Of a DNA stretch of 40,480 bases, positions 28,787 to 40,406 are shown piece by piece (positions within the stretch are counted from its first letter, which is position 1; each line of letters starts with the position of its first letter). The notes beneath the pieces are model-generated. The model searched no databases, had not been told where the DNA came from, and saw only the letters and a list, made by a program, of their open reading frames with translations. The translations under genes were made by a program, and so were the position numbers. The DNA is from Ignavibacteria bacterium. GTDB lineage: Bacteria; Bacteroidota; Ignavibacteria; Tepidaquicellales; Tepidaquicellaceae. The DNA lies in the NCBI GenBank assembly GCA_016873795.1, contig VGWA01000009.1:1-40480 (forward strand), given 5' to 3'.

Positions 28787-31700
28787 CTATTTGATAAGTA
28801 TCATTTTCTTAACATCTCTAAAATCACCGGCTTCAATTCTGTAGTAATAGACGCCGCTTGCAAGTGTAGAGGCATTAAATTCGACTATGTAATTACCTGC
28901 AGACTTATTTTCATTAATTAGAGTCTTTACTTCTCTTCCGAGTATATCAAAGACTTTGATTGTAACAAAGGACTGCTTAGGAATAGCGAAGTTTATTTTT
29001 GTTACTGGATTAAACGGATTTGGATAATTTTGTGACAGCGAATAGGTTGTCGGTAATTCTCTCGGGTCACCTGTAATATTATTGGGACCTGGATTCATTA
29101 CGATTGAAATATTTGGTAATGCAGTATATGTTGAACCCGGAGTAGTTGCTATTGCACATCCATCGCCCGTAGATAAATCAGAATGGTAATGAATATTCCG
29201 TCCCGACGAAGCAGTTGCATATACAGTTGTGTTTGATGTATAACTACTGTTATTGAAACAAATTTCGATTAACAAATTACTTGTTCCATCCCAATAGAAC
29301 GGCAGATTAAGGTCAACGTATTGCCAACCAGTACCCGGAACTGTGTAGGCTCCGTTGTAACAGACTGTCCAGCCTGTGTTTATCCATGTACTTACTGTTG
29401 AGGATGTTGTGTTCTGCATTTTTATGTAGAATCCGTTCATAGTTTGGGAAGCTACTGTAGCCACATTAAAACCAATTCTTGGTATAAATCCTGCTGCTCC
29501 GCCCTGTGCGGTTATTTCTGAAGCGAGGTATAGCATCTGTGTTCTGGAATCCATATAGTATGTATAGAATGGCCAGCCCACTGCAGTTGTTCCGTTTCCG
29601 ATGTTTACCGTAACCTGATTTATGATTTTGAAACTATATAGTTGTGTTGAATCTCTTTTGTGTAAAGAACCGGCATCCTGTGCAACGATTCTATAGAATA
29701 TGGAGTCATTAAAGTTAACGTCCGGTGGTACGGAATTGAACAATGCCGAATAGTTATTTCCGGTTGTGTTATTTAGTCTGAATGTTCTTATTCCAGTACT
29801 TGTATTGTTTATATACCAGTTTACCCACACACTGTCAATTCCTATATTATCAGTTGCAGATGCCGTTACCGTTGCAGGCCAGAGGGTCTTTGGCGTATTT
29901 TGTAAAGGTGTATGTGTAAGAACAGGTGATGTTGTATCAGTAGCAGCATAGAATGAGAATAATTCTGTGGGAGCAGTACCCGGAAGTTTTCCGATTCTAC
30001 CTGCCGTATCAAGTGTTTTAATATAATATCTGTATATTGCCGCTGTTCCGTTTCCCGGAATGTTTGCTGTCCAGTTGTTACCGGAAGAATTAGTCATTAC
30101 AATACTGTCAGTAATAACGGTATTATTTCTTGACCACAATAATTTTGTTTCACCAAGAACTAATGGTGCTGTTGCAGGGGTAATAACGCAGTTTACTACA
30201 TAAGGACCGTTAAGATTTTCTGTATTAGGTAACTTTGCGTGTGAAATTGCGGGTCCGAGAGGTACTCCTCTGGTTAACAGAAGTGAGCAATCTCCGAAGA
30301 TATTGTATTGTTCCATAAGTTTCAAACCTTCGCCCGAACTACCGCCCCACATATCCATTGCTTTCATAACGCCGAAGAACGACATTGCTCCCGCAGTTTT
30401 TCTCCATTGATGAGCCATTAATCTCATTGCGTACATTTGCATATCGCAGGGAGGTACCCAACTCGCATTAGTTGAAGATGCATATATTGAAGAGCATCCT
30501 TTTGGGTTGGCTGTATCTCCTGCTCTTAAGAGAGCTTCTGCAAGACATTCTGTAAGTGTAAATTTTCCATTTAAGCAGGCAACGTCAACTAAAAACGGAT
30601 TCATCCAGCCGTTAGCTAACTGATAGGCATTGGAAACATTAAAACCGGTATTGCTCCAAGAAGTCCCCGAGCCGTGTCCAATATAATTCAAAACAAATCT
30701 TCCATCATTTAGAACATTTATTAATGTCTGAGCGGTAGCAATTGGACCGTTTACCTTATCGACATGTGTGAATCCGCCCAATAATAATGTATCTCTTACC
30801 CAATTCATTCTGATTGAATCCGTATACGAAGGCGTTCCGCCATTATCTGGTCCGGCAACTCCTGTAGCTTTATTGTACCAAGGAGCACCTGGAGTTACGT
30901 CTCTTTCCATTCTTATCAACTTTTCTATCACATAAGCAGCATTTGTCGGGTTTGGGCAGGATATTCTCGATATAAAGGCATCAGGATATGCATCAGTACC
31001 TGCCAACTTAACATAGCAAGGGTCAGACGGTGCTGATTCATAAACACCATTGAGTGTCGGAATCTGGTCTGATTCGCCGACTAAAATTATGTATGTAATT
31101 TTTTCCGGCTGATTATATAAATTCTGTATATATGTTTTAATAGCCGTGTTACCCGTTCCCGTTTGTGTCGGGTATTCTGCTGTTAAAACGGTCAAACCTC
31201 TGGATTGCTTCCACTGTACCAAGGGAACGATTGTTGTTGCATATTGTGAAGCGTAGATTATAAGCATTCTGCCCGGTTCAGGAATAGAATCAAATCTTGT
31301 TGAACCGACTCCGTAATTTAAAAATAATGACCTGTATATACTTGCAAATTCATAATCTACTGCAGTAAGACCTCTTGTTCTTTTAAAAGGATTTATTACG
31401 CCGGTACCCGGATCAGAATAGACCTCAATAACCATTTTTTTGCAAATTTTAAGAGTGTTCTTAATATGGTTATATTGCATCGGGTTAAACTGTACTGTCA
31501 TTCCTCTTAAATCACGAACTATATAGGGCTCGTCGAGCAATATATTCTGGGCAGGATAATATGTATCTGTATTATAAAAATTACTAAATGTATAAGGAAC
31601 TGTCTCAGGGTCAATATCTCTTGTAAAATGACCTTTTGACGGCATTATCGGTCCGCTCTGCACCTCGTAATATTCAGATGAGAGGACGCGATAGTTCATC

Positions 31701-31978
31701 CCTGCTAAATCAGGAATTATTATACTGCCTCTGTAAGTAGGTAATTGAGGATAGCCTTTTTCCATAAGGACTATCATGTCCGGAGCCGAAAGATTTAAAT
31801 AGGTTGCTCCGTTGATTTTTACTTCGCTTTGTTCGTAACCTAAAAACTGGTATTCTATTTTGGTGCTGTTTCCTTCCGAAGAAAGAACTTTTACCTTAAT
31901 TCCGCTCTGTTGTGCGGATACTAATCCTGCAGAAACAAACAACAGGATTAAAAATGAAAGGACTATTCTTGTTCTCAT
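28787..31978 (-). CDS. C25 (gingipain-family) cysteine protease with T9SS sorting domain
   Basis: A 1063-residue secreted protein with signal peptide 1-22 (...SAGLVSAQ), an N-terminal prodomain-like region (~25-230) and a peptidase C25 domain (~236-560). The catalytic pair is visible as NYIGHGSG (His435) and VDVACLNG (Cys468). Ig-like and jelly-roll-like beta domains occupy ~570-970, and a type A T9SS sorting domain the last ~85 residues (QNYPNPFNP ... LASGVYYYRIEAGDF ... KKMILIK). Gingipain-type enzymes are exported by T9SS and act on the cell surface. The gene lies 34 bp downstream of a paralog whose C-terminal half is closely similar. Arg/Lys specificity of the gingipains should not be assumed. 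Confidence 0.92.
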   Translation of the reverse strand: MRTRIVLSFLILLFVSAGLVSAQQSGIKVKVLSSEGNSTKIEYQFLGYEQSEVKINGATYLNLSAPDMIVLMEKGYPQLPTYRGSIIIPDLAGMNYRVLSSEYYEVQSGPIMPSKGHFTRDIDPETVPYTFSNFYNTDTYYPAQNILLDEPYIVRDLRGMTVQFNPMQYNHIKNTLKICKKMVIEVYSDPGTGVINPFKRTRGLTAVDYEFASIYRSLFLNYGVGSTRFDSIPEPGRMLIIYASQYATTIVPLVQWKQSRGLTVLTAEYPTQTGTGNTAIKTYIQNLYNQPEKITYIILVGESDQIPTLNGVYESAPSDPCYVKLAGTDAYPDAFISRISCPNPTNAAYVIEKLIRMERDVTPGAPWYNKATGVAGPDNGGTPSYTDSIRMNWVRDTLLLGGFTHVDKVNGPIATAQTLINVLNDGRFVLNYIGHGSGTSWSNTGFNVSNAYQLANGWMNPFLVDVACLNGKFTLTECLAEALLRAGDTANPKGCSSIYASSTNASWVPPCDMQMYAMRLMAHQWRKTAGAMSFFGVMKAMDMWGGSSGEGLKLMEQYNIFGDCSLLLTRGVPLGPAISHAKLPNTENLNGPYVVNCVITPATAPLVLGETKLLWSRNNTVITDSIVMTNSSGNNWTANIPGNGTAAIYRYYIKTLDTAGRIGKLPGTAPTELFSFYAATDTTSPVLTHTPLQNTPKTLWPATVTASATDNIGIDSVWVNWYINNTSTGIRTFRLNNTTGNNYSALFNSVPPDVNFNDSIFYRIVAQDAGSLHKRDSTQLYSFKIINQVTVNIGNGTTAVGWPFYTYYMDSRTQMLYLASEITAQGGAAGFIPRIGFNVATVASQTMNGFYIKMQNTTSSTVSTWINTGWTVCYNGAYTVPGTGWQYVDLNLPFYWDGTSNLLIEICFNNSSYTSNTTVYATASSGRNIHYHSDLSTGDGCAIATTPGSTYTALPNISIVMNPGPNNITGDPRELPTTYSLSQNYPNPFNPVTKINFAIPKQSFVTIKVFDILGREVKTLINENKSAGNYIVEFNASTLASGVYYYRIEAGDFRDVKKMILIK

Positions 31979-32012
31979 TTTTTTATTATTAATTTATACT
32001 GTTTATTATATA

Positions 32013-35000
32013 CTATTTAATAAGTATCATTTTTTTCACATCTTTGAAATCGCCGGCTTCTATTCTGTAATAATAAACGCCGCTTGCAAGCTCTGATGCA
32101 TTAAAATCTATTATGTAATTTCCTGCTGATTTCACTTCGTTTACTAATGTTTTAATTTCTCTTCCGAGTATATCGTATATTTTCATTGTAACAAACGATT
32201 GCTTCGGGAGTGCAAAATTTATTTTTGTTACAGGATTAAACGGATTCGGATAATTCTGCGAGAGTGAATATGATTCAGGTATTTCTGTTGTCAGCTGATT
32301 TATTCCGGTTACAAGATTAATTACAAGTGAAATGTTAGGCCTGTATGATAGTGCTCCCGTACCGCTCGTAAGATTAGCAGTACAACCGTCTCCTGATGAC
32401 AGATCGTTATATCTTCCGTATGCCATGCCTGACATTGTTGTTGCGTTGACCGGAGAATATTGTGTATATGAAGAATTATTATAACAAACCTCTACAAGTA
32501 AATTGCTTGTTCCATCCCAGTAGAACGGAGAAGTTAATTCAACAAACTGCCATCCTGTACCTGTTAACGAATAAACTCCGTCATAGCAGGTTGTCCAACC
32601 GGTTGTTACAAAGTTCGAAATAGAGGTTACGTTTGTATTTTGCATTTTTACTTTGAATCCATTCATCGGCGACAGGTCAGCTGATATTACATTAAAGCCG
32701 ACTTTTATTATATTTCCCGCAGCACCCATTCCAGCGATAATTTCGCTTGCAGTAAACAGCATGTCTGTTCTGCCGTCCATCCAGTATGTAGTGAACGGAT
32801 AATTTGATGAAGTTGTACCGGTTCCTATTGTAGCTGTTGTTTGTGCGACAATTTTGAAACTGTATAATGCTGTTGAATCTTTCCTGTGTAATGAACCGGC
32901 ATCCTGTGCGAAGACTCTATAAAAAATAGAATCGTTATATTCAACTTCCGATTGTAATGAGTTAAACACACCTGAATAATTGTTACCCGACAAGTTATTC
33001 AATTTAAAATGTTTTATTCCTGTAGCAGATGAGTTTTTATACCACCTTACCCACACGCTGTCAATTCCAATGTTATCCGTTGCCGAAGCTGTTACGGTTG
33101 CAGGCCAGAGAAGTTTTGGTGTATTCTGAAGAGGTGTGTGGGTTATTACAGGACATGTTGTATCAGTCGAAGCCATGAAAGAGAAGTAACTCGTTGGAGC
33201 TCCGCCCGGAAGAAAAGTTGTTAAACCCGCATTGTCAGTAGTTCTTATATAGTATTTATATATAGCCGGACTACCGTTTCCGGGAATATTTCCTGTCCAA
33301 TTGTTTCCGGATGAGTTTGTCATCGAAAGACTGTCAAACACAGTTGTTCTTGTCCAGAACAGCTTTGTCGATGAAATTGGATTTCCCGCAGGAGTAATAA
33401 CGCAATTTACTGTGTAAGGACCCGTCATATTTTCAGTGTTAGGAAGCGGTGTATGTGAAATCGCCGGACCGTAAGATAGTTGATAAATTGACGGGTCTCC
33501 CATACAATTATACATTTCTAAATAACGCTGTGTCATTCCGCTCATTCCCCAATGCTGGTAGTAATAGTATTTTCCTCTAACATAGTTTTCCGCATTTTTC
33601 TTCAGGTTGTCAACAAATAATGATTTCACGACTCTTTTCTCGAGAATATCGTCTTCATCCCAGTATGAATTTACGGATGATCCCCAGAATACTACACCCG
33701 CTTTCGGCTTTCTAATCCATGTCTCTGCAAAACATTCGCCGGACATATGATATGAACCTGTTATACAAGCGTAAGAATAAACATAAGGAAATATAGTGTT
33801 ATTTAAAGCACTGACATTTGCCTGACTAAATGGAGGACCGTCTGCCCAGGAAGTCGTTGAACCATGCCCTGAGAAAATTGCAAATATCTTTCCTGAATCT
33901 ATTGATTGTGTTACCTGGGCTGTTGTAGCTCCATAATATGAATACAGTTTGGTGTTAACCGTAAATCCGTTAGGTATGAAAAAAGTATCAATTACAAAAT
34001 TATGAGTTCCCTCTGATACGGTATGATTATCAGTCGACGCCATAAATACATTCTTTTTCCACAGTGCATTAATGGCGTTTTCCATATAAACTGTCTTGTT
34101 AATAATATTTATTAAAGATGTTGTGTCCGAGAGCGGGAATCTTCCGAGAAACACATCTGCAAATAAATCACTGCCTTCTAATAAAGAATAATTTAAATCA
34201 GTACTTGGGGTTCCTGTTCCGCCGCCTGTCCAGCAGGGAATTTGCTCTACATCTCCTACAAGCAATACAAATTCCGGTCTTGTGCTAATGTTATTATAAA
34301 GATTTTGAATGTAAGTCTTGATTGACGTATTCGTAGTACCGGTTACGGTTGTGTTGACAACTGTTACAATATAGCCAAGGTTTGTCTTATGTGTTACCAG
34401 TGGCGCAAGATGACCATCAAGATTAGGAGCGGTGATAATGAGATATCTGTTAGTACCAGTGCTTTTTGCTGATTGATAATTTATAAACAGGCTTTGATAA
34501 AAACTATTATATGATTCTGACGGCACAAAATCCAGTACGGGTTCTGTAGTTAATTCTATTTTAATGCTTGCAGTTCTTAAAATGTTGAGCTCATTTGAGG
34601 AAGGATTATAGCCATAAGGATAAACAGTTACCATTACTCCTTTCGCACCTGCAAGAATAAAAGGTTCTGAAATAGTAATAATCGGCTCATCAATATTTCC
34701 TCTTGTATTATAATATTCCCAGTCAATTGTAAAAGGTCTGTCGTTAAGCGAATATACTTTTTCCCAAGGTGCCTGTCTTGGATATATTTTATGTTGAAGA
34801 CCGATTGTTTCTTTATTTTGTGATAAAACTCGATATGTTGGTATTTGTTCATTTTTTCCGATTAAAACAAAAAATGAAACCTGAGGAAGCTGCGGTCTTC
34901 CGTCACCCAGCGTTATTCCGTAATCTACCGACTCCAGTTTTGTAAAAGTTTCCTCTATGTTTTGTTTATCTGTTATTTTAACAGAAACATCCGTCATTTT

Positions 35001-35165
35001 GTAGCCGGGATTTGTGAAATTTATCACATACCCGGTTCCTTCTCGCTGATATGATATTCCATTAGGTAAATCACCTGCTATCAGACCTGACATTAGGTTT
35101 GGAAAAAGATTTACCGATAGAAAAACCATCATTGAAATTATCAAAGTAAAACTGATTTTTTTCAT
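32013..35165 (-). CDS. second C25-family cysteine protease with T9SS sorting domain
   Basis: A 1050-residue paralog of the downstream gene with the same order: signal peptide, prodomain, C25 domain (~240-550), beta domains and T9SS sorting domain (~966-1050). Catalytic residues are His434 (FSGHGSTTSW) and Cys467 (YSYACITGSY). The N-terminal ~550 residues have diverged well beyond the framework motifs. From GPAISH onward the two proteins match almost block by block (HTPLQNTPK, LWPATVTASATDNIGIDSVW, DAGSLHRKDST). It starts at ATG, 41 bp after the nuoE-like gene. The pair is probably co-transcribed and ends at the terminator near 28717. Confidence 0.92.
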   Translation of the reverse strand: MKKISFTLIISMMVFLSVNLFPNLMSGLIAGDLPNGISYQREGTGYVINFTNPGYKMTDVSVKITDKQNIEETFTKLESVDYGITLGDGRPQLPQVSFFVLIGKNEQIPTYRVLSQNKETIGLQHKIYPRQAPWEKVYSLNDRPFTIDWEYYNTRGNIDEPIITISEPFILAGAKGVMVTVYPYGYNPSSNELNILRTASIKIELTTEPVLDFVPSESYNSFYQSLFINYQSAKSTGTNRYLIITAPNLDGHLAPLVTHKTNLGYIVTVVNTTVTGTTNTSIKTYIQNLYNNISTRPEFVLLVGDVEQIPCWTGGGTGTPSTDLNYSLLEGSDLFADVFLGRFPLSDTTSLINIINKTVYMENAINALWKKNVFMASTDNHTVSEGTHNFVIDTFFIPNGFTVNTKLYSYYGATTAQVTQSIDSGKIFAIFSGHGSTTSWADGPPFSQANVSALNNTIFPYVYSYACITGSYHMSGECFAETWIRKPKAGVVFWGSSVNSYWDEDDILEKRVVKSLFVDNLKKNAENYVRGKYYYYQHWGMSGMTQRYLEMYNCMGDPSIYQLSYGPAISHTPLPNTENMTGPYTVNCVITPAGNPISSTKLFWTRTTVFDSLSMTNSSGNNWTGNIPGNGSPAIYKYYIRTTDNAGLTTFLPGGAPTSYFSFMASTDTTCPVITHTPLQNTPKLLWPATVTASATDNIGIDSVWVRWYKNSSATGIKHFKLNNLSGNNYSGVFNSLQSEVEYNDSIFYRVFAQDAGSLHRKDSTALYSFKIVAQTTATIGTGTTSSNYPFTTYWMDGRTDMLFTASEIIAGMGAAGNIIKVGFNVISADLSPMNGFKVKMQNTNVTSISNFVTTGWTTCYDGVYSLTGTGWQFVELTSPFYWDGTSNLLVEVCYNNSSYTQYSPVNATTMSGMAYGRYNDLSSGDGCTANLTSGTGALSYRPNISLVINLVTGINQLTTEIPESYSLSQNYPNPFNPVTKINFALPKQSFVTMKIYDILGREIKTLVNEVKSAGNYIIDFNASELASGVYYYRIEAGDFKDVKKMILIK

Positions 35166-35206: not shown

Positions 35207-35719
35207 TTAATCAGATTTATCTAAATCCCTTATTATACTTACTGCTTTTTCCGGAGTTAATTTTGTATATATTTTGTTATTTATCATCATTGCGGGTCCA
35301 AGGTCGCACATTCCCAGACAATTTGTGTATTCAAGAGTGAATTTATTGTCTTTTGTCGTTTCCCCGACTTTAATCTTTATTTCTTTAGTAATAGCTTTTT
35401 CTACTTCTTCTTTTCCTGCCAGATCGCAAATAATGGTTCGGCATAGCCTTATAATATATTTTCCTTTTGGTTCGCTGCTCAGGAAAGAATAAAATGTTAT
35501 TACTCCGTAAACTTCAACAGGATGAATATCAAGTAGCTTTGCTACTTCTTGCTGTGCGAAACTCGAAATAAATTTGTATTTTTTCTGTATTTGCTGTAAA
35601 ACAGGAATTAATGCGGAACGGTCACTTCCGTAAACTTTTACTAAACTTTCAATTTCTTTTGCTAATTCGCCATCGTGAAGTTGTTCAGCTTGGCGGATAA
35701 TTTTTTCTGTTGGCTCCAT
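35207..35719 (-). CDS. NuoE/HndA-like 2Fe-2S subunit
   Basis: A 170-residue thioredoxin-like [2Fe-2S] protein of the 24-kDa subunit family, found in complex I (NuoE) and in NADH-linked or electron-bifurcating [FeFe]-hydrogenases (HndA/HydC). The helical N-terminus (VLQQIQKKYKFISSFAQQEVA) and the cluster cysteines C93, C98, C134 and C138 (LCRTIIC ... NCLGMC) are all present, so it should bind its cluster. No nuoF, nuoG or hydrogenase gene is adjacent; downstream are the C25 proteases and upstream a response regulator 53 bp away. The partner complex is therefore unknown from this window. Confidence 0.88.
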   Translation of the reverse strand: MEPTEKIIRQAEQLHDGELAKEIESLVKVYGSDRSALIPVLQQIQKKYKFISSFAQQEVAKLLDIHPVEVYGVITFYSFLSSEPKGKYIIRLCRTIICDLAGKEEVEKAITKEIKIKVGETTKDNKFTLEYTNCLGMCDLGPAMMINNKIYTKLTPEKAVSIIRDLDKSD

Positions 35720-36382: not shown

Positions 36383-38035
36383 ATGAAAAATATATTTAAA
36401 GCTCTTTTATTAATAGCAATATTTGCAATCAAATCTTTTTCCTATACTGGAGAGGTTGTGAAATCATTTGATACACCGGGGAAATTTCCGACAGGTCTTT
36501 GTTTTGACGGTAAACATCTCTGGGTAGCGGATAGGGAAACGGATAAAATTTATTGTGTCGACACTGAAAACGGAAATATAATAAGAGAATTAGAATCTCC
36601 GGCTTACTGGCCGATGGGATTAGCTTGGGACGGCGAATATTTATGGAATGCCGATTTAAGGGGGATAACGGATAAATCGGAAGATTTAGACGGTATGATT
36701 TTTAAAATTGATATCCGTGACGGTACAATTCTAAAGACTCTTAATGCTCCGTCGAAAAGCCCTGTAGGATTAACATGGGATGGGAAATATTTCTGGTGTG
36801 TTGACGATAAAGCTGATAAAGTAATTCAATTCAGTCCGGTTGACGGTACTACAATAAAGTCTTTCAAATCTCCGGCTTCTGACCCTACAGGTATATGCTT
36901 TGACGGGAAATATCTTTGGATATCCGACAGAATTACGGATGAAATATATATGGTTGACCCCCAAACCGGCATTGTTATAATTATTACAAACGCTCCGGGC
37001 AATTATGTACACGGACTGGCTTCTGATGGAACCAGATTATGGGCAGTTGATTATGAGGATGATAAAATATATGAATTGAAGATAAAAGACGGAGAGAAGT
37101 TTTTTAGAAAAGACGCGCAATTACACAAAGTAGTTTTTCGACATAGCGTTAAGTGTTTCGGACCGGGCAAGATTAAAACACTTGATGTAAATATTGCTCT
37201 TGCAGAAAACAGGGATAATCAGATGCTGCTTGAGGAAATTAAGTACAACATTAAGCCTGCGGATATTTTAACGGATAAATGGGGACAAAAGACAGCTTTT
37301 TTCAGTTTTAAAGACATCAAACCGGGAGAAAGTAAAGACATCAGGGTAACAACGGTTTTTAAAACCTATAACCTGAGATATTTTATTTACCCTGAAGACG
37401 TAGGCTCTCTTGAGGATATTCCCTATGATATCAGAGAAAAATATCTTGAAGATGACGAGAAATATCAAATAGATAGTGATTTAATCCGAAAAACAGTTGA
37501 GGAAGTTGTAGGTGATGAAAAAAATCCGTACTGGATTATGCGCAAGATCCACCAGTATCTTATTGGTCATTTGCATTATCTTATGGACGGAGCGTGGGAT
37601 ACTGCACCAACGGTGCTGAAAAACATGCACGGCTCCTGTTCGGAATATTCTTTTGCATTTATTGCACTTTGTAAAGCGTCAGGGCTTCCTACAAGGTACG
37701 TGGGGTCAACCTGGATTAGAAAAGATAAGGCGAGTATGGATGATGTTTATCATAGATGGGTTGAAGTGTATCTGCCTAATTACGGCTGGATTCCAACAGA
37801 CCCTACACACGGTGACAGGGAATCCCCCCGAGACCAGGCGTTTCCGATTGGTTATGTCAGCAACTCCGCATTAATCACTACTCAGTCCGGAGGCGGTTCT
37901 TCAACGATGGAATGGACATATAACAGTAACATAAACTATACAGCAGAGCCAAAAACAAATCTCAATATAACACATTATGCAGATTGGGAACCGGTTGATA
38001 AATTAATGTATCCGGACGAAACTGACATTAAGTAA
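36383..38035 (+). CDS. exported beta-propeller protein with transglutaminase-like domain
   Basis: A 550-residue exported protein with a signal peptide at residues 1-20. Five repeats of about 40-50 residues with the pattern GLxWDGxYLWxxD (near 38, 79, 129, 172 and 211) form a propeller of the NHL/SMP-30 type. After a beta linker (~240-360) comes a transglutaminase/protease-like domain with the Cys-His-Asp triad HGSCSEY (Cys419), DVYHRWVEV (His457) and PTDPTHGD (Asp473). In the transglut_core family this triad serves cross-linking or peptide cleavage. The complete triad argues for activity, but the reaction is not known. No T9SS tail. The start is ATG, divergent from the response regulator. Confidence 0.88.
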   Translation: MKNIFKALLLIAIFAIKSFSYTGEVVKSFDTPGKFPTGLCFDGKHLWVADRETDKIYCVDTENGNIIRELESPAYWPMGLAWDGEYLWNADLRGITDKSEDLDGMIFKIDIRDGTILKTLNAPSKSPVGLTWDGKYFWCVDDKADKVIQFSPVDGTTIKSFKSPASDPTGICFDGKYLWISDRITDEIYMVDPQTGIVIIITNAPGNYVHGLASDGTRLWAVDYEDDKIYELKIKDGEKFFRKDAQLHKVVFRHSVKCFGPGKIKTLDVNIALAENRDNQMLLEEIKYNIKPADILTDKWGQKTAFFSFKDIKPGESKDIRVTTVFKTYNLRYFIYPEDVGSLEDIPYDIREKYLEDDEKYQIDSDLIRKTVEEVVGDEKNPYWIMRKIHQYLIGHLHYLMDGAWDTAPTVLKNMHGSCSEYSFAFIALCKASGLPTRYVGSTWIRKDKASMDDVYHRWVEVYLPNYGWIPTDPTHGDRESPRDQAFPIGYVSNSALITTQSGGGSSTMEWTYNSNINYTAEPKTNLNITHYADWEPVDKLMYPDETDIK

Positions 38036-38178: not shown

Positions 38179-38439
38179 ATGGAAAAGACTATTTTACTTA
38201 TTCTCATCGGTAACAGAAAAGATTCTGCCGTAAAAGTTCAGCAAGTGTTAACAGCATGGGGCTGCCTTATAAAAACGAGACTCGGGATACATGACGGAAT
38301 ACTCGAAAATTGCTCCGACCAGGGTCTTGTAATTCTTGAACTGTACGGAACCAGAGAACAAAAAGAAGAAGTAGCAAGAAAAATATCCGTAATTCCGGGT
38401 GTTTCATCTAAACTTGTTGACCTTAAACTGGAAGAATAA
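38179..38439 (+). CDS. small ACT/NikR-like protein, resembles TM1266 hydrogenase-associated family
   Basis: An 86-residue protein that fits a ferredoxin-like (ACT) fold: opening strand KTILLILIGN, helix VKVQQVLTAWG, strand IKTRLGIHDG, strand GLVILELYG, helix EEVARKISVI, then PGVSSKLVDLK. This order and the RLGI and PGVxxK positions recall TM1266-type proteins, annotated as putative regulators of the iron-only hydrogenase system in Thermotoga and Clostridia. There is no DNA-binding domain. The match is by memory of the fold pattern and is not certain. It stands alone, with 140-170 bp gaps on either side. Confidence 0.6.
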   Translation: MEKTILLILIGNRKDSAVKVQQVLTAWGCLIKTRLGIHDGILENCSDQGLVILELYGTREQKEEVARKISVIPGVSSKLVDLKLEE

Positions 38440-38609: not shown

Positions 38610-40406
38610 ATGAAATTCTTAAAAATAATATTTTTATTTATCTTTCTTTTTCTAATTACAAGTCAAACCTTCTCTCATGAGGAACCTGCAAAAACATTAA
38701 AGGAAAAGAAAGAAAAGGAAAAAGAGAGCCGCAGAATATTATCGTCTCAAATAAAATCCTCAGTGGTTTTTAAGCATTTTTTAAAAAATAATATTATTTC
38801 GGAAAAGAGCTTTAAATATTCCGAGTCTGAATATAACGATGCGGGTTATATTAAGTCTGTTGTTTCTTATGATTCCACAGGCACTGTAAATACGAAAGTG
38901 ATTTACGAATATGACGAAAATAATAATATGATTATCGATGCCGATTATGATTCGAAAGGAGTGCTGAAAGAAAAAATTATTTATAGTTATGATGAAAACG
39001 GACTTGTTACCGGTGCAGTAAATATGAAGGAAGATAAAACAGATTCCAGATTCGTATACGTTCGCAATCTTCAAAAAAACTCGGTTGATTTATTTAAATA
39101 TAATATTGAGAATGTTCTCGAATATAAAATCGATTATTTATATTACGGACAGGATGAAAATAGTATTTTAATAGAAGTAATCAAGTATATTCCCGGTAAA
39201 GATACCTTAATGAGAGTCGAGTACAATTATTATCCTTTTCAACCCGGTGAACATTCAGGCAGAGTAAAGGAAAAAGTTATTTTCGGTAACGATAATTTTC
39301 TGATGCATAAATTCGAATATAAGTATGCTGAATCAGGTAACATAGAAACAATAAAGAAAATACTTCCTGATAATAAAATTGAACTCACGCAAAAATACAA
39401 TTACGACGAAAGTAACAACATTAAACAAGTTGTGGTGTATAATCCGGATAGCCTTATAATTTCAAAAACAACATATACATATTACGTCCGAACTCAGCCG
39501 GAGACGTCCGATATTTTCGGGATAATCGGTAATACGCCTTTAGTTGAAATTGACGGTATTTACGCTAAGCTGGAAACAGTGAATCCGGGTGGAAGTATAA
39601 AAGACCGTCTGGCAGCATATTTAATTCAGAAAGCTGAAGAACGAGGAGAGCTAAAGCCAGGGCAGGAAATTATTGAATTCACAAGCGGAAATACGGGTGT
39701 AGCTTTTTCAATGATTTGCGCAATAAAAGGATATAAATTCACAGCAGTTATGCCGGAACATAGGGGTATCGAAAAGCAAAAAATTATGAAAATTTTTGGT
39801 GCAAATCTAATTCTTACTCCGGAAGAAGAAGATTTTCAAGGAGCTCTGAAAAAATACAACGAACTGCTTAAAGAAAAATCTGAAGCCTGGTTTCCAAATC
39901 AGTTTGAAAACACAAACGGTCCTGAAGAGCATCGAACAAAAATCGGACAGGAAATTATCCGGCAAATGAACGGGCAGATTGATGCTTTTGTTGCAGGGGT
40001 CGGGACCGGCGGAACATTAATCGGTATTGCAAAAGCACTTAAAGAAATTAATCCCGATGTCAAAATAATTGCAGTGGAGCCGGAAGAATCACCTGTCCTG
40101 TCCGGAGGCAAATTTATTCCTCATCGAATAGAAGGAATCGGTGAGAGTTTTATACCTGATATTATAAAAGAAAACAGACATTTGATAGATGAAATTATTC
40201 TTATAAAAAGTGAAGATGCTATTAAGATGGCAGTAGAAATAATACAAGAGCACGGTTTTCTGGTTGGAATTACATCCGGAGCAAATGTACTTGCAGCAAA
40301 AGAAGTGAACAAAAAATACAAAAGAGTAGTAACTGTTTTGCCCGACAGGGGAGAAAGATATCTTGATATTTATCTTGATTTTATATCAAAAACTTCTCCC
40401 GATTAA
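38610..40406 (+). CDS. signal peptide + YD-repeat-like domain fused to cysteine synthase
   Basis: A 598-residue chimera in one uninterrupted frame. Residues 1-22 are a typical signal peptide (MKFLKIIFLFIFLFLITSQT...) followed by a Lys/Glu-rich stretch. Residues ~65-295 are beta-hairpin repeats of the YD type (YEYDENNNM, YSYDENGLV, YNYDESNNI, about 22-25 residues each where regular). Residues 301-598 are a complete fold-type II PLP enzyme of the CysK/CysM family: IGNTPLVEI, NPGGSIKDR with PLP-binding Lys331, SGNTG (359-363), GVGTGGT, EPEESPVLSGG, GIGESFIPDI and LPDRGERY. CysK makes cysteine from O-acetylserine and sulfide and is normally cytosolic. No ATG precedes the enzyme part; only two in-frame GTGs at codons 275-276 could start it alone. 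The domain calls are firm, the joint location is not explained. Confidence 0.85.
   Translation: MKFLKIIFLFIFLFLITSQTFSHEEPAKTLKEKKEKEKESRRILSSQIKSSVVFKHFLKNNIISEKSFKYSESEYNDAGYIKSVVSYDSTGTVNTKVIYEYDENNNMIIDADYDSKGVLKEKIIYSYDENGLVTGAVNMKEDKTDSRFVYVRNLQKNSVDLFKYNIENVLEYKIDYLYYGQDENSILIEVIKYIPGKDTLMRVEYNYYPFQPGEHSGRVKEKVIFGNDNFLMHKFEYKYAESGNIETIKKILPDNKIELTQKYNYDESNNIKQVVVYNPDSLIISKTTYTYYVRTQPETSDIFGIIGNTPLVEIDGIYAKLETVNPGGSIKDRLAAYLIQKAEERGELKPGQEIIEFTSGNTGVAFSMICAIKGYKFTAVMPEHRGIEKQKIMKIFGANLILTPEEEDFQGALKKYNELLKEKSEAWFPNQFENTNGPEEHRTKIGQEIIRQMNGQIDAFVAGVGTGGTLIGIAKALKEINPDVKIIAVEPEESPVLSGGKFIPHRIEGIGESFIPDIIKENRHLIDEIILIKSEDAIKMAVEIIQEHGFLVGITSGANVLAAKEVNKKYKRVVTVLPDRGERYLDIYLDFISKTSPD

Follow-up and report, generated by a model that had tools for sequence, protein, structure and literature searches.

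Does a frame at the end of a contig of an Ignavibacteria bacterium encode one exported protein that carries a complete cysteine synthase, or does its form reflect an assembly error or two separately made proteins? The window (the whole stretch of 40,480 nucleotides that was analysed) had been read from its sequence alone as containing a single open frame in which an exported-looking YD-repeat domain precedes a CysK-type enzyme. The frame itself is as described, running uninterrupted for 598 codons from an ATG, and the two halves are not broken in the window by a stop codon or frameshift, which the earlier reading had named as the mark of two separate genes. The gene combines two known kinds of part in a new way and was seen once. 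Its features and those of the neighboring genes are listed in Table 1.

Table 1. Features of the fusion gene and of the adjacent part of the window
Feature	Position	Strand	Description
Gingipain-type C25 peptidases	28790..35165	-	two adjoining genes, about 1050 aa each, each with a propeptide and a T9SS Por sorting tail
NuoE-like protein	35207..35719		2Fe-2S protein
Secreted-looking protein	36383..38035	+	550 aa; weak SGL/propeller-like region, then a transglutaminase core
CPF_0552 family protein	38179..38439	+	86 aa, directly upstream of the fusion gene; weak likeness to the TM1266 iron-only hydrogenase regulator
Fusion gene	38610..40406	+	ATG start, 598 aa; signal peptide, RHS/YD-like beta-repeat protein and CysK-type PLP enzyme
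Putative Sec signal peptide	38610..38675	+	residues 1-22, MKFLKIIFLFIFLFLITSQTFS
Mature RHS/YD-like all-beta repeat region	38676..39485	+	residues 23-292; from orthologues, model and Foldseek
Two GTG codons	39432..39437	+	residues 275-276; last in-frame ATG/GTG/TTG ahead of the enzyme
8-bp direct repeat	39484..39491 and 39504..39511	+	ACGTCCGA; 20-bp period, on both sides of the linker
Linker VRTQPE	39486..39503	+	residues 293-298, G+C-rich; flanked by homologue ends and starts
Full-length CysK-type enzyme	39504..40403	+	residues 299-598 (start approximate); PLP Lys331
Frame at contig end	40406..40480	-	ends EWIFEYKNTGPVYRKD; probably the tail of a convergent gene

The most hydrophobic 15-mer of the N-terminal half covers residues 3-17 (mean Kyte-Doolittle value 2.84), and a putative signal peptide, called by eye and by hydrophobicity, is likely to be cleaved before His23. 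There is no lipobox cysteine, C370 being the sole cysteine of the fusion protein, and a profile search found no T9SS C-terminal sorting domain in it. In the orthologues, a hydrophobic N-terminus in the same position is followed by H(E/F)EPxKTLKEK; the claim of an exported-looking N-terminus is borne out to the extent that the hydrophobic stretch is real and its position common to the orthologues. Because both this stretch and the His23-Glu-Glu-Pro start are shared in position, the fusion protein would be expected to follow the export route of its orthologues.

To call the following region YD-like repeats is justified, although the sequence match is weak: the Pfam RHS_repeat family (PF05593) matches the N-terminal half with an E-value of 0.003 and 18.2 bits, below the gathering score of 22. 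An AlphaFold2 model of this half (mce24d9ccb887), built from six sequences, consists of one helix (residues 30-44) followed by 18 short strands, with a mean pLDDT of 77.7. When this model was used in a Foldseek search, Rhs effectors, teneurins and Tc C proteins came top, followed by Bacteroides 'porin-like' proteins; the Rhs and teneurin matches have high probability and low TM-scores (global values of 0.1-0.5, with poor superposition). Since the sequence match is weak and the global TM-scores are low, we name this half RHS/YD-like and not a proven member of the family.

Among the 59 nearest genomes, clear full-length orthologues of the N-terminal half were identified in two that belong to the same family as the host (L006 in G025, 37% identity, and L007 in G023, 35%). 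Each is a gene by itself (298 codons for L006 and 297 for L007) that stops within a few residues of the junction in the window. The host genome itself encodes a second, more distant stand-alone copy of 279 aa (L005), and related exported-looking proteins, mostly of 250-500 aa and often with a YxY end, are widespread in the class and phylum. In total, 24 distinct stand-alone YD-type loci were judged free-standing from their length and the way they end, many of them showing a Y-x-Y-type tail. By this comparison, what forms the N-terminal half here is in relatives a whole protein of its own that stops at the junction, and the fusion therefore appears to join two whole genes. No trace of an ancestral adjacency was found in the gene neighborhoods, as the N-terminal orthologues have no cysK alongside and the closest cysK genes lie in clusters of another kind.

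The C-terminal half had been taken for a complete CysK-type enzyme and proves to be one, with full length, the motifs NPGGSIKDR, TSGNTG, GTGGT and SGA, and the PLP-binding Lys331 all present. Pfam PALP (PF00291) covers residues 304-579 (E 4.4e-71, 240 versus 35 bits, profile positions 3-295 of 295), and the best solved-structure matches are ordinary cysteine synthases (PDB 2egu, E 5.9e-80). The best NCBIfam match is cysK (TIGR01139; residues 305-588, E 1.1e-103), for which the enzyme half narrowly misses the cut-off (346.6 versus 350.95 bits); the nearest relative, L082, scores 466.3 bits on the same profile. K331 is invariant in an alignment of the window enzyme with five homologues, and 39 of the 43 near-invariant columns (at least 95% among 84 homologues), K331 included, are kept, the exceptions being A/Y416, N/G437, T/I445 and S/T555. 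At the threshold of at least 90% conservation, 5 of 52 columns are lost in the window enzyme compared with a homologue median of 0, and some few other homologues lose as many (5-8). The loop after NTP (NTPLVEI) comprises 9 residues versus 11-19 in the measured homologues.

Homologues of the enzyme are found everywhere, the closest (in G175, G241 and G282) being about 47-52% identical. The tree gives the window enzyme a long branch (1.16) whose position is uncertain and which falls outside the clade of the family's native CysK/CBS enzymes and the second copy of the host (L002). Given the altered near-invariant positions and the long branch, the enzyme may have a changed or reduced activity. L082-L084, the closest cysK genes, belong to clusters with nitrite/sulfite-reductase-like, TusA-like and PLP transsulfuration-type genes, recognised by eye from translations, and this gene context is absent around the window gene. 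Separately, a family-specific group of CysK-type enzymes of 361-377 aa (L014-L018, L020, L022 and L025) forms a clade of its own in the tree, and one of these, L014, has an extra cysteine-rich C-terminal tail.

The homologues of the N-terminal half terminate at the position of residue 291-292, and alignments of CysK homologues begin at about residue 299, which leaves about six residues between two complete genes at the join. Each of the other CysK-type loci examined (about 110) has its own start where the enzyme half begins, and at most 64 open codons lie upstream of the CysK match at all other loci compared, versus 296 in the window. The arginine codon CGA (R294) and the threonine codon ACG (T299) are each one transition away from TGA and ATG, respectively. 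The contig contains five G+C-rich 8-mer repeats of this kind, with the copies no more than 40 nt apart; the one that flanks the linker is possibly a scar of the fusion event. A single lost stop codon or one sequencing error was rejected as the origin of the frame, two changes being required for two good genes. Fusion via the 20-bp repeat unit was rejected as well: removing the unit changes the frame so that the first protein terminates, but the enzyme frame then has no ATG, GTG or TTG start, and two normal genes are not recovered. A structural element at the junction was also rejected, RNA folding being no better than for shuffled sequences (z 0.19).

Homologues spanning both halves, which the sequence-only reading proposed to seek in related genomes, were detected in none of the genomes searched (29 of the family, 391 of the class and 395 of the phylum), a set that includes no relative from the genus of the host. 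No description of a secreted cysteine synthase or of such a fusion was found in the open-licence literature.

We consider the gene a probable true fusion and not a product of assembly. An assembly chimera, in which the assembler, close to the end of a contig, attached a cysK belonging to another part of the metagenome to the end of a gene for a secreted protein, is unlikely. It would account for a fusion that is known from one assembly and present in no relative, for the short direct repeat at the join, and for the position of the enzyme half outside the native CysK/CBS clade of the family; the fusion gene stops 75 nt short of the end of the contig, which is the whole window and one of 273 in an assembly with an estimated contamination of 4.2%. 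Such a chimera, however, would need a break within a few codons of one stop and another start, in frame, which by a rough estimate occurs in fewer than 1 in 1000 cases if breaks fall at random within two genes of this kind. The junction sequence is unique in the host genome, and an 8-bp repeat is far below the assembly k-mer length. Both halves also match the contig in composition, with GC3 values of 28.1% (N-terminal) and 28.4% (C-terminal), both within the contig range, and codon scores under the contig model of 0.110 and 0.112, respectively (0.082-0.159 for the other ORFs of the contig). By contrast, GC3 is 0.50 and 0.16 in cysK genes from the nearest relatives of the enzyme, which thus differ from each other and from the contig. 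Compared with relatives, second codon positions are the most conserved in both halves (0.64 in the N-terminal half, third positions 0.39; 0.74 in the C-terminal half, third positions 0.32), a codon-position pattern that in our reading is protein-level constraint in both.

If the DNA is real, the fusion might still be an accident that is tolerated or decaying, under relaxed selection and with enzyme activity weak or lost. The four changed near-invariant positions, the loss of 5 of 52 conserved columns against a median of 0 and the branch of 1.16 would all fit such decay, and the second CysK-type gene could meet the need of the cell. We find this improbable, given a frame without a stop or frameshift, intact K331, TSGNTG, GTGGT and SGA, the constraint seen in the codon-position pattern and the few homologues that have lost equally many positions. 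Quite improbable is separate production of an ordinary cytosolic CysK by initiation within the gene, either at one of the GTG codons (39432 and 39435) or at a non-standard start: both GTG codons are present, CysK enzymes are known as cytosolic and the homologues begin at about residue 299, but these codons would append about 23 foreign residues, no ATG, GTG or TTG occurs in frame in the approximately 22 codons between them and the enzyme, promoter-like matches in the region are not above chance expectation, and without a stop between the halves the upstream protein would carry the enzyme in any case.

The host genome, which is 97.6% complete, contains the second CysK-type gene that the sequence-only reading had recommended looking for (C51:13019-13939, CysK/CBS-type, 39% identity). 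No gene in this genome scores above the TIGR01172 cut-off for CysE (best 41.7 bits) and no NIR_SIR sulfite reductase was recognised in it, so that the usual substrates of CysK are not obviously supplied. Given these absences, the presence of two full-length PF01053 transsulfuration-type enzymes and the two T9SS-tailed gingipain-type peptidases, the host resembles a protein-degrading organism more than a sulfate-assimilating one.

The preferred reading, a genuine lineage-specific fusion that is exported by Sec and active as a PLP enzyme in the periplasm, has in our estimate slightly less than an even chance of being correct as a whole. The gene for a Sec-exported RHS/YD-like protein would have lost its stop and a CysK-type gene its start, the two becoming joined through about six residues. 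The product would be a single chain that crosses the inner membrane by means of its signal peptide and is cleaved before His23, after which the repeat part would keep the fold-type II PLP enzyme at the periplasmic face of the envelope. With PLP bound at Lys331, the enzyme would there catalyse beta-replacement or beta-elimination, its substrates being amino acids of the serine or cysteine type, and the second CysK-type gene would serve the cytosol. We infer each of these steps, namely expression as one chain, export, PLP-dependent folding outside the cytoplasm and the reaction. A full-length AlphaFold model of the fusion protein is poor (pLDDT 60.5) and uninformative on the packing of the halves. 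CysK enzymes are regarded as cytosolic, and substrates of Sec cross the membrane unfolded, so that PLP would have to be bound outside.

The broad-spectrum racemase BsrV, a PLP enzyme at work in the periplasm, is a precedent for such a relocation (PMC7890096). Besides using sulfide with O-acetylserine, CysK-type enzymes act weakly as cysteine desulfhydrases (PMC6401616). A tentative and rather doubtful proposal is that a Sec-exported, repeat-tethered CysK forms or degrades cysteine or sulfide beyond the cytoplasm in a proteolytic host of Bacteroidota type that lacks a recognisable CysE or sulfite reductase; a role in handling extracellularly released cysteine or sulfide is a speculative possibility. 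Through export, PLP-dependent reactions of cysteine or sulfide would take place in the envelope, and this would raise the questions of how PLP reaches the enzyme and what its substrate is without O-acetylserine from a recognisable CysE. If private to one population, the gene would be a clean case of two unrelated whole genes joined in frame.

Among known systems, the enzyme half resembles CysK/O-acetylserine sulfhydrylase A (TIGR01139, PF00291, PDB 2egu) in its full length, core motifs and PLP lysine, but differs in that it follows an exported domain, has no start codon of its own, falls just under the curated cut-off, and has a shortened post-NTP loop and four changed near-invariant residues, in a host without a CysE over the cut-off or a sulfite reductase. 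The N-terminal half resembles stand-alone secreted YD/RHS-like proteins of about 280-300 aa from the same phylum (L006, L007, L008 and L071, and L005 from the same genome), of which L006 and L007 match it over the whole length, with the hydrophobic N-terminus, the HxEPxKTLKEK start and the YxY end; unlike the fusion protein, all five lack the enzyme. As modelled, this half also shares strand-turn-strand repeats with RHS/YD-repeat shells (Rhs effectors, Tc C proteins and teneurins) and with the Bacteroides proteins 4ghb and 3tzg, but differs from the shells in having no demonstrated closed shell or toxin and a sequence match under the Pfam cut-off. In the CdiA-CT/CysK toxin-activation complex, CysK is likewise brought together with a secreted protein (PMC5422565), but there it comes from the cytosol of the target cell and lies outside the secreted chain, and the window protein has no CdiA-type toxin. 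BsrV, although distinct in PLP fold and reaction and in having no repeat-domain fusion, is, as predicted for the window protein, an exported member of a PLP enzyme family that includes cytosolic members (PMC7890096).
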